This document shows positions 2,426 through 5,165 of a DNA stretch of 5,183 bases, in pieces. This DNA comes from Thermococcus sp. (lineage in GTDB: Archaea; Methanobacteriota_B; Thermococci; Thermococcales; Thermococcaceae): contig JAGGWM010000216.1 in assembly GCA_021157445.1 (NCBI GenBank), forward strand, positions 1 through 5,183, read 5' to 3'. Under the pieces are notes generated by a model that saw only the letters and a program-made list of their open reading frames with translations, had not been told where the DNA came from and ran no database searches. Position numbers and translations under genes: made by a program. Position 1 is the stretch's first letter. Every line of letters begins with the position of its first letter.

Positions 2426-3493
2426 ATGGACAGAATGAAAAGATTCTTAGAATATCTTGAGGAATACGATGGGGCATTGATAACCCCCGGTAGCAATCTC
2501 TATTATTTAACCGGAATGGCACCTCAAGCAACTGAAGAAAGGCTCTTTCTTCTTGTGGTCAATAGAGATGGAGAAAGCGTTTTAATAGCGCCCAAGCTCT
2601 ATGAAAACGAAGTTGAATGGAAAAATGTTGTGTTCTGGAGAGATGAGGAGAATCCTTATGGGGTTCTTGAAAGAGTCCTATCTTCCCTAAACTTGAAAAG
2701 CGGTAAGATTCTGGTGGAAGATACAATGAGGGCGAGCTTCTTAATTCATATCGAACGGTTTTTAGAGAATTACACTTTTTACCCTCTGAGTGTAGTTACA
2801 AAAGAAATGCGAATGCGTAAAGGTGAAAAAGAAATAAGGCTGATGAAAAAGGCCGCTGAGATTGTAGATAAGGTTTTTTACGAAATAGCAAGCAGAGACT
2901 TAATGGGAAAAAGCGAAAAGCAAGTTGCCTTGGAAATCGAGTTTCTTATTAGGGAGCTGGCAGATGATGTGGCCTTTCCTCCTATAGTTGCTTCCGGCAA
3001 AAATGCTGCAAATCCTCATCATTCGCCTGGTGAAAGAAAAATAAGGCATGGAGACTTTGTGATACTCGACTTTGGGGCAAGATACAAAGGTTACTGCTCG
3101 GATATAACGAGAACTGTGGCAATAGGTCACGCCAATGAGAAGCTTAAGGAAATCTATGAAATCGTTAAAGAAGCTCAAGAAAGGGCTTTCCAGAGTGTTC
3201 GTGAGGGGATAAAAGCTGGGGATGTCGACATAGCTGCAAGAGAACACATAGCTAGGAAAGGTTATGGAGAATACTTTATCCACAGAACAGGACATGGATT
3301 GGGTTTGGAAGTCCATGAAGAGCCCTATATAAGTCAAGCAAGCGAAAGGATTCTTGAAAATAGCATGACATTTACAATTGAACCCGGCATCTACATCCCA
3401 AATTTGGGCGGTGTGAGAATAGAAGACGATGTTGTTGTGGAGAAAAAAGGAAAAAGACTTACAAAAGCTGAAAGGGAACTAATGGTTCTTTGA
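2426..3493 (+). CDS. M24 family metallopeptidase (prolidase / Xaa-Pro peptidase type)
   Basis: A 355-residue cytoplasmic metal-dependent peptidase that probably cleaves X-Pro dipeptides or removes the residue before a proline in short peptides, helping to recycle peptides. Residues 1-125 form the N-terminal creatinase/prolidase domain (YYLTGMAP at 26-33); residues 130-355 form the pita-bread catalytic domain. All five dinuclear metal ligands are visible: Asp215 (ILDFGA), Asp226 (SDITRT), His290 (HRTGHG), Glu319 (TIEPG) and Glu333 (RIEDD). The accessory histidines in NPHHSPG (198-199) and His297 are also present, so an active enzyme is expected. The length is close to that of archaeal prolidases (about 350). 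The N-terminal domain, which sets substrate choice, may differ from the well-studied P. furiosus prolidase, so an aminopeptidase or paralogous role cannot be excluded. The 3' end overlaps the convergent amidohydrolase gene by 15 bases. Confidence 0.93.
   Translation: MDRMKRFLEYLEEYDGALITPGSNLYYLTGMAPQATEERLFLLVVNRDGESVLIAPKLYENEVEWKNVVFWRDEENPYGVLERVLSSLNLKSGKILVEDTMRASFLIHIERFLENYTFYPLSVVTKEMRMRKGEKEIRLMKKAAEIVDKVFYEIASRDLMGKSEKQVALEIEFLIRELADDVAFPPIVASGKNAANPHHSPGERKIRHGDFVILDFGARYKGYCSDITRTVAIGHANEKLKEIYEIVKEAQERAFQSVREGIKAGDVDIAAREHIARKGYGEYFIHRTGHGLGLEVHEEPYISQASERILENSMTFTIEPGIYIPNLGGVRIEDDVVVEKKGKRLTKAERELMVL
3442..3455 (-). terminator. Possible T-rich terminator of the amidohydrolase gene
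   Basis: On the minus strand CTTTTTCCTTTTTTC lies about 25-35 bases after the TAG stop of the amidohydrolase, inside the 3' end of the peptidase gene on the other strand. Two T runs of five and six are enough for archaeal termination. The tract also encodes Lys-rich residues of the peptidase (EKKGKR), so it may be coincidental. Confidence 0.4.
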
Positions 3494-4999
3494 ACCCGCT
3501 ACATAGACCTCAAGAACTTTTATGTCTCTCAGCTCTTCCTCTTTAGCTTCAAATGGATCCCGATCCACTATAATAAAGTCTCCAAATTTGCCCTCTTCAA
3601 GGGTTCCAAGTTCATCCTCGGCATGCATTATGCAGGCGGAGCCATAGGTATAGCTGTGGAGGCTCTCCTCAAGAGAGAGGCATTCACCCTTTGTGTAGTT
3701 ATAGGTCTCAATGCCTTCGAATTTGCCCCTGGTCACTGCCGCATAGATGCTTTCCCAGGGATTTGCGGGCTCTATAGGAGAATCTGTACCAAAACCTATC
3801 ATAACCCCTTCTTCAAGCATGCTCTTGAAGGGGTAAACCCATTTTGCCCTTCTTTTTCCAACTCTCTTCACTACCCACCAATCGCTTATTACAAACCTTG
3901 GCTGGACCGAAGCAACAACTCCAAGCCTCTTCATCCTCTTTATTTGGTCTTCCCTTAAAATTGATGCGTGTTCTATGCGGTTCCTCTCTCCTCCGAGCTC
4001 ATCATAAATGCCTAGAATCATGTCTGTGGTTTTATCCCCTATTCCGTGGATTGCCATCTGGAGACCTAGCCGATGGGCTTCTTGAACTATTTTCTTTAAC
4101 TCTTCTCTGCTTATGTTGGGGTGTCCGGTTGTAGGGGCATCTTCATAGGGTTTGGAAAGCCATGCTGTCCGGGCTCCAAGGCTTCCATCGGCAAGAACCT
4201 TTATCCCCATAATCTTTACCCTCTTACTCCCGACTCCTCTGGTAAGGCCAAGGCCTTTCAATTCTTCAAGAAGGGAAGGATTTAGGTATACAAACACCCT
4301 AATAGGGAGCTTACCTTCGTTATCTAGCTCCAGAAGCGCTCTAAGGCTTTTCTTATTTACACTCACGAAGCCGACACTTGTAACACCCTGTGAAAGGACG
4401 AACTTAGCCCCTTCTTCGAGAAAGTGTTTGTAATCTTCGACCGTTAAAGTCTCGTTGATAATCTCTCTTACCTTTTCCAGGGCGTTTTCTTTTATTATCC
4501 CGGTTTCAAGGTCTGCATCTTCACCTTCTTCTAAGCTTACCATCTCCATAGCTTTCGTGTTTAAAACAGCTGCATGAAAACAGGTTCTATACAAAAGCAC
4601 TGGTTTGCTGTTAACAATCTCGTCCAAATCCTTTTTTGTGGGGTACCTTCCAAGCTCTTCCTGATCCCATCCAAAACCGAGAATCCAGCTTGTATTCGTT
4701 TTGTTGGCATAATCCTTGAGCTTCTCCTTTAATTCTTCTATGCTTTTTGTCCCCTTTAAATTGAGCATTTTCAAAGACTGCCCGAGGGAATTTAGATGAA
4801 TATGGGAATCTATGAACCCCGGCAGGGCAATTTTTCCCTTTAAATCTACCACTTCTCCTTCAAGTTCCTCAGCAATTTTGCGAGCCTTTTCACTATTTCC
4901 GGTATAGAGTACCTTTTCATTGCCTATAACAATGGCTTCTGTAGTTTTCAAAGGTTTAAAAGATATGTATATTTTCCCGTTCACAAAAGCCCTGATCAA
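3479..4999 (-). CDS. YtcJ-like amidohydrolase (metal-dependent TIM-barrel hydrolase)
   Basis: A 506-residue member of the amidohydrolase superfamily (Amidohydro_3 group, including YtcJ and N-substituted formamide deformylase), expected to hydrolyse a C-N bond of a small amide; the natural substrate is unknown. A short N-terminal beta domain leads into LPGFIDSHIHLNSLG, with metal ligands His66 and His68. Further family motifs are ILGFGWDQ (106-113), KVLADGSLGARTA (268-279, Lys268 a candidate metal-bridging residue), AIHGIGD (His318), NRIEHAS (His344) and FGTDSPIEPANPW (catalytic Asp406). The C-terminal part returns to the beta domain (LGTLEEGKFGDFIIVDRDP). The set looks complete, so it is probably active. 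The start is TTG at 4999, chosen because AGGGGAG lies five bases upstream and no other start codon occurs in frame nearby. The gene has its own promoter and overlaps the peptidase gene tail to tail, so no shared operon is indicated. Confidence 0.92.
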   Translation of the reverse strand: MIRAFVNGKIYISFKPLKTTEAIVIGNEKVLYTGNSEKARKIAEELEGEVVDLKGKIALPGFIDSHIHLNSLGQSLKMLNLKGTKSIEELKEKLKDYANKTNTSWILGFGWDQEELGRYPTKKDLDEIVNSKPVLLYRTCFHAAVLNTKAMEMVSLEEGEDADLETGIIKENALEKVREIINETLTVEDYKHFLEEGAKFVLSQGVTSVGFVSVNKKSLRALLELDNEGKLPIRVFVYLNPSLLEELKGLGLTRGVGSKRVKIMGIKVLADGSLGARTAWLSKPYEDAPTTGHPNISREELKKIVQEAHRLGLQMAIHGIGDKTTDMILGIYDELGGERNRIEHASILREDQIKRMKRLGVVASVQPRFVISDWWVVKRVGKRRAKWVYPFKSMLEEGVMIGFGTDSPIEPANPWESIYAAVTRGKFEGIETYNYTKGECLSLEESLHSYTYGSACIMHAEDELGTLEEGKFGDFIIVDRDPFEAKEEELRDIKVLEVYVAGSKNH

Positions 5000-5030: not shown

Positions 5031-5048
5031 CTTTTATATTTTCTTTGG
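5031..5048 (-). promoter_or_regulatory. Promoter of the amidohydrolase gene (BRE/TATA)
   Basis: On the minus strand CCAAAGAAAA runs into TATAAAAG, a close match to archaeal BRE plus TATA. The predicted transcription start is about 5008-5014, giving a leader of only 10-15 bases that begins at or just before the ribosome binding site. Confidence 0.65.
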
Positions 5049-5057
5049 TTGGCCTAT

Positions 5058-5073
5058 CAAAAAGTCCTTAAGT
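5058..5073 (+). promoter_or_regulatory. Possible promoter of the C/D box sRNA
   Basis: The plus strand has CAAAAA followed by TCCTTAAG. This is a weak TATA box, but the spacing of about 25 bases puts the start near 5094, exactly at the predicted 5' end of the sRNA. Support is positional rather than from sequence quality. Confidence 0.35.
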
Positions 5074-5093: not shown

Positions 5094-5151
5094 AGCCGAT
5101 GAAGAGCGGTTTCGGAACTGAAGGGTGATGTCACCAGCTATCGCTGAGGCT
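5094..5151 (+). ncRNA. Candidate C/D box methylation-guide sRNA
   Basis: About 58 bases with the order of a dual-guide archaeal C/D RNA. A C-like box CCGATGA (5096-5102, consensus RUGAUGA) is followed by a 15-base guide, D' box CTGA (5118-5121), three-base spacer AGG, C' box GTGATGT (5125-5131), a guide of exactly 12 bases CACCAGCTATCG (5132-5143), and D box CTGA (5144-5147). AGCC (5094-5097) and GGCT (5148-5151) can close the ends. The 3-base D'-C' spacer and 12-base C'-D guide are the preferred archaeal values. The RNA would bind L7Ae, Nop5 and fibrillarin and direct 2'-O-methylation at the base paired five positions upstream of each D box. The D guide is complementary to GATAGCTGGT, a conserved stretch of 23S rRNA domain II, which independently supports the call. 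The first two bases of box C are off consensus. No protein frame fits this gap. Confidence 0.75.
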
Positions 5152-5153
5152 CA

Positions 5154-5165
5154 TATTTATAAATT
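5154..5165. promoter_or_regulatory. TATA element near the right edge, direction unresolved
   Basis: TATTTATAAATT contains a palindromic TTTATAAA, a strong archaeal TATA core. On the plus strand the start would fall at about the window end, so it probably drives a gene to the right. A minus-strand start would fall near 5134 inside the sRNA, with no ORF to match except the already promoted amidohydrolase. The rest of 5166-5183 shows no recognisable feature. Confidence 0.45.

Follow-up and report, generated by a model that had tools for sequence, protein, structure and literature searches.

The locus and the parts of the RNA

The window (i.e., the whole stretch of DNA analysed, 5,183 nucleotides) carries an amidohydrolase gene and, on the same reverse strand, a tRNA-Arg with the anticodon GCG at 2283-2360 (RF00005 at 2286-2360), and its last 184 bases, beyond the amidohydrolase gene, hold no reading frame of at least 60 codons. 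In this terminal part, an earlier note made from the letters alone had read a C/D box guide RNA divergent from the amidohydrolase gene. The gene indeed points away from it, and the covariance search that the note had proposed, run with the Rfam models, returned the archaeal C/D box sRNA sR28 (RF01136) at 5095-5149 of the forward strand, with model positions 1-55 of 55 aligned and a score of 59.9 bits (E = 5.5e-14), the cut-off being 39; under stricter filters the score was 47.2 bits over model positions 2-54. Eight further C/D families matched the same place, every one below its own cut-off, as is expected among related RNAs. The stability of the single-strand fold was not unusual (z = 0.23), which is expected because the family model contains no base pairs. 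The features of the locus are as follows (D' and D targets in E. coli numbering).

3479..4999, reverse strand: amidohydrolase gene (Amidohydro_3), divergent neighbour of sR28
5059..5072, forward strand: predicted promoter of sR28, BRE/TATA-like, AAAAAGTCCTTAAG, conserved in the genus, with a putative function
5094..5155, forward strand: sR28 C/D box guide RNA, with presumed ends taken from the 62-nt T. kodakarensis counterpart (Rfam match proper, 5095-5149)
5094..5097, forward strand: 5' arm of the terminal stem, AGCC, possible 4-bp stem with GGCT
5099..5105, forward strand: box C, ATGAAGA (alignment of 79 copies; one mismatch to the consensus RTGATGA)
5106..5117, forward strand: D' guide, 12 nt, predicted target 23S G674
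5118..5121, forward strand: box D', CTGA (alignment of 79 copies)
5122..5124, forward strand: spacer AGG between box D' and box C'
5125..5131, forward strand: box C', GTGATGT (one mismatch to RTGATGA)
5132..5143, forward strand: D guide, 12 nt, predicted target 23S A804
5144..5147, forward strand: box D, CTGA (alignment of 79 copies)
5148..5151, forward strand: 3' arm of the terminal stem, GGCT (alignment of 79 copies)

These parts were set by the in-register alignment of 79 copies, namely the window and 78 fetched loci (those of G052, G053 and G054, although above the cut-off, were left out). Note that the patterns of the copy parser include parts of both guides, so that the conservation of those guide letters is not independent of the parser, and that no fetched locus was lost to it. 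The window RNA displays four boxes close to RTGATGA or CTGA and, immediately ahead of D' and of D, a guide of about 12 nt. Compared to the RF01136 family, the boxes, guides and spacing are alike, the match is full-length and above the cut-off, and the differences are point differences only (box C ATGAAGA and box C' GTGATGT in the window). Among the 79 copies, box C reads ATGACGA 48 times, ATGAAGA and ATGATGA 12 times each, ATGATGT 4 times and GTGATGA 3 times, and the guide length is 12 nt throughout (79/79). The possible terminal stem lies one base before box C, and its first three pairs are all formed in 68 copies. The ends given by the earlier note (5094-5151) coincide with this stem, and its CTGA, AGG, GTGATGT, 12-base guide and second CTGA fall exactly on the parts now assigned to 5118-5147. 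Its first half needs correction, since box C had been read three bases too early, as a C-like box with a GATGA core, leading to a first guide of 15 bases; the relatives place box C at 5099-5105 and leave a guide of 12 nt.

Guide pairing with the 23S rRNA

No 23S or 16S rRNA was found in the assembly of the window (61% complete), and the guide targets were therefore read in relatives. The 23S target region was obtained from 61 genomes, 59 of which carry sR28; G064 (71% identical) and the second G002 copy were excluded. In all 59 genomes with both parts read, positions 3-11 of the D' guide and 2-11 of the D guide are paired with the 23S rRNA, and the N+5 base lies within the guide-rRNA duplex in the right register (59/59). 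Position 8 of the D' guide forms C-G in 24 genomes, U-A in 22 and U-G in 13, and is never mismatched; its positions 1, 2 and 12 are often unpaired, all three of them in the genus of the window. In G074, which belongs to this genus, the pairing sites in the 23S rRNA are 785 for the D' guide and 917 for the D guide. The N+5 bases correspond to E. coli 23S G674 and A804, a numbering that was checked against one marker, presumably position 745.

Shuffled guides reached the observed run somewhere in the 16S or 23S rRNA in 42 of 1000 trials for D' and in 6 of 1000 for D. The D' match alone would thus be weak, and the D' target call relies on the register, on the consistency from genome to genome and on the printed sites. 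As for the latter, the predicted sites in G004, which we take to be P. abyssi, are 810 and 942, counted from the start used for G006; Gaspin 2000 is reportedly the founding Pyrococcus paper and the primary source for the P. abyssi data. Table 2 of PMC11542601, in which all sites are headed as experimentally mapped, lists Gm809 and Am941 for this species, i.e., the same nucleotides as the predicted targets, both one base of start numbering apart. In that table, the Gm809 row corresponds to yeast Gm805 and human Gm1522, and the Am941 row to Arabidopsis Am945. The 16S rRNA was set aside as the main target, since the longest Watson-Crick run of the D guide is 6 in 16S versus 10 in 23S; a 12-position run of this guide with three G-U pairs occurs at 16S 238 of G074.

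We therefore consider that the stretch 5095-5149 is almost certainly a copy of the known guide RNA sR28, predicted to direct 2'-O-methylation at 23S G674 and A804. In the proposed mechanism, L7Ae, Nop5 and fibrillarin would form an sRNP with sR28, each 12-nt guide would pair with its 23S target, and the target base lying five positions away from box D' or D (N+5 rule) would be the methylation site, leading to the predicted 2'-O-methylation of G674 and A804. The annotation is settled to the extent that one more genome holds the guide RNA of two sites that are on record for archaeal 23S rRNA; for one of the two, methylation is also listed in yeast and human (PMC11542601).

According to the Rfam archaeal 23S structure, the first target contributes its bases 2, 3 and 5 to pairs with bases 10, 9 and 7, respectively, of the second target, and its bases 9-14 to pairs with the six bases immediately preceding the second target. 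The two targets are thus opposite strands of one helix, and sR28 would bind only while this helix is open. It can be asked whether, beyond methylation, the dual guide is mainly a folding helper, which keeps the two strands apart and lets them pair after departure of the sRNP. Such a role is proposed in PMC4644070 for guides with targets close in secondary structure, with Pca sR2 and Iho sR472 given there as 23S examples of similar spacing. The N. equitans sR15 and sR17, which the same source proposes as rRNA chaperones, likewise address the facing strands of a single rRNA helix with their two guides, but in the 16S, whereas the predicted targets of sR28 are in the 23S. However, two genomes that are 99% complete (G015 and G035) retain the target sequences, apparently without sR28, and a folding role would be compatible with methylation anyway. 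Altogether, this reading, based on the partnership of both targets in one helix, is rather improbable, and we retain sR28 as a predicted methylation guide.

Counterpart RNA, promoter and gene neighbourhood

In G024, which we take to be T. kodakarensis, the stretch 558818-558879 is exactly the sR28 copy of this genome, with GTGATGA as box C, CCGA as box D' and GTGAGGA as box C'. These are also the coordinates of sR20 in Table 1 of PMC9014305, which gives a size of 62 nt, with aligned reads numbering 1,622 in the wild type and 1,400 in the RNA ligase knockout, and circular reads 21 and 0, respectively; in total RNA-seq, the corresponding pairs are 84 and 46 (wild type) versus 37 and 0 (knockout). 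According to these published counts, the counterpart, which belongs to the same family as the window RNA, is transcribed and partly circularised, and the RNA of the window may behave likewise. Note that the RNA named sR28 in PMC9014305 (832364-832425) is not this RNA; its counterpart in that table is sR20.

The window copy would be transcribed from its own promoter. Indeed, AAAAAG (5059-5064) precedes a TTAA box (5068-5071), the centre of which is about 25 bases upstream of the presumed 5' end at 5094, and this arrangement recurs in 12/12 aligned loci of the genus (window included, G083 not aligned). In G078, which has another gene on the left, conservation starts just ahead of the AAAAAG/TTAA block. 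The AT content also has its maximum 31-36 bases ahead of box C in the groups g2, g3 and g4; for g1 and g5 the maximum is found further upstream, yet a CTTAA box can be seen at about -30 to -36. A clear TATA box was not seen in seven of the 8 g4 rows viewed (of 48), among them the T. kodakarensis copy, where, unlike in the window, nothing clearly TATA-like stands in the 70 bases upstream.

The amidohydrolase gene is the left neighbour in 11 of the 13 loci of the genus (one contig being cut and one rearranged), and it was not seen beside sR28 outside this genus among the two nearest frames per side. A second TATA-like stretch lies at 5033-5041 of the window, placed where the reverse-strand amidohydrolase gene could use it; in G078, which lacks this gene beside sR28, the bases aligned to it differ. 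On the right, an SRP-type GTPase gene (ftsY-like) follows in 12/12 same-genus relatives, in 44/48 g4 loci and in 4/7 g5 loci; this assignment comes from a Pfam run on the G074 protein only. The contig of the window ends before the gene.

This recurrent neighbour (12/12 relatives and 44/48 g4 loci) would fit a leader regulator, in which the element, as a kink-turn bound by L7Ae, controls the downstream GTPase gene and is no free guide RNA, and PMC4247193 points out that part of the snoRNAs predicted in leaders could be cis-elements. However, a TATA-like box stands between sR28 and the GTPase gene in 10/12 aligned loci of the genus, the 9 g3 loci have other first genes on the right, the guides are conserved, and the T. 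kodakarensis counterpart is published as a discrete and circular RNA (PMC9014305). We regard such a regulator as very improbable.

Occurrence, kink-turns and protein partners

sR28 is a catalogued family of the heat-loving Thermococcales archaea, and the window copy is a true and ordinary member of it, not a new RNA. It is present in 82/94 Thermococcales genomes, 78 of them above the cut-off and four at 37-39 bits (G075, G076, G080 and G087), the latter confirmed by sequence. In the other 12 genomes, an exact search for the D-guide core gave 25 places, and none of the 20 viewed is an sR28; one of the five unviewed places falls inside the 23S gene of G015, and a diverged copy could have escaped this exact search. 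Among these 12 genomes, G015, G035 and G093 reach a completeness of 99%. Apparently without sR28, G015 and G035 keep both 23S targets, with one change in G035 at position 13 of the first target. Of 14 named control genomes, that of the distant archaeon Sulfolobus acidocaldarius was the sole one with RF01136 above the cut-off.

The view of the earlier note that this gap encodes a methylation guide and not spacer DNA is therefore borne out by the RF01136 match, the conservation across the order, the targets in the 23S of relatives and the published counterpart RNA. Its further proposals, namely an rRNA target search, an alignment with other Thermococcales and a discrete or circular small RNA, all turned out in its favour, through the 59/59 in-register fits, the boxes and guides aligned in 79 copies and the linear and circular reads of the 62-nt T. 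kodakarensis RNA (PMC9014305). That spacer DNA would resemble C/D boxes by chance is hardly conceivable, since nothing was found in favour of it and both the E-value and the conservation across the order refute it.

At position 3b.3n of the kink-turn, where base 5 of box C faces base 2 of box D, the 79 copies show C.C (43), U.U (19), A.U (12), C.U (4) and C.A (1), and for base 5 of box C' and base 2 of box D' they show U.U (72), G-C (5) and G.U (2). A strong U:U bias at this position is reported in PMC5689011. Co-variation was tested on a tree of the 59 neighbouring GTPase proteins, in which 13 of the 55 inner branches are well supported. The C/D co-variation, strong at first sight, comes down to 7 changes and to 3 independent pairs on branches that are well supported (two changing the same way and one unchanged), a number with which the test cannot reach significance; the C'/D' turn has 2 independent pairs, one changing the same way, and guide-target co-variation at D' position 8 has 2 independent pairs, mostly without change, neither being significant on the same tree. 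Co-variation of kink-turns and of guide and target is thus mildly new, but not significant when relatedness is allowed for. The combined proposal that sR28, as an rRNA folding helper, clamps both strands of the 23S helix until both are methylated, and that its two kink-turns co-evolve as paired units, box C with box D as U.U, C.C or A-U and box C' with box D' as U.U, G.U or G-C, is a tentative one that we rather doubt. The kink-turn and guide changes among relatives provide a small set of data for testing how the match between a guide RNA, the turns that bind its proteins and its target is maintained.

The kink-turn pair of the window is A-U. Kink-turns with Watson-Crick pairs at this position fold poorly in ions according to PMC4382518, suggesting that the turn of the window would need L7Ae to bend. 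Regarding the partner proteins, the fibrillarin and Nop genes adjoin each other on contig C194 of the same assembly, which also encodes one L7Ae-type protein of 101 aa, similar to the second one of G074. The 129-aa L7Ae-type protein of G074, which is the likelier L7Ae, found no match in the assembly of the window, and this may reflect a gap, the assembly being 61% complete. The same assembly holds two further catalogued C/D sRNAs on opposite strands of contig C192, about 36 bases apart: sR12 (47.8 bits) at 4161-4212 on the reverse strand and sR34 (76.5 bits) at 4249-4302 on the forward strand.
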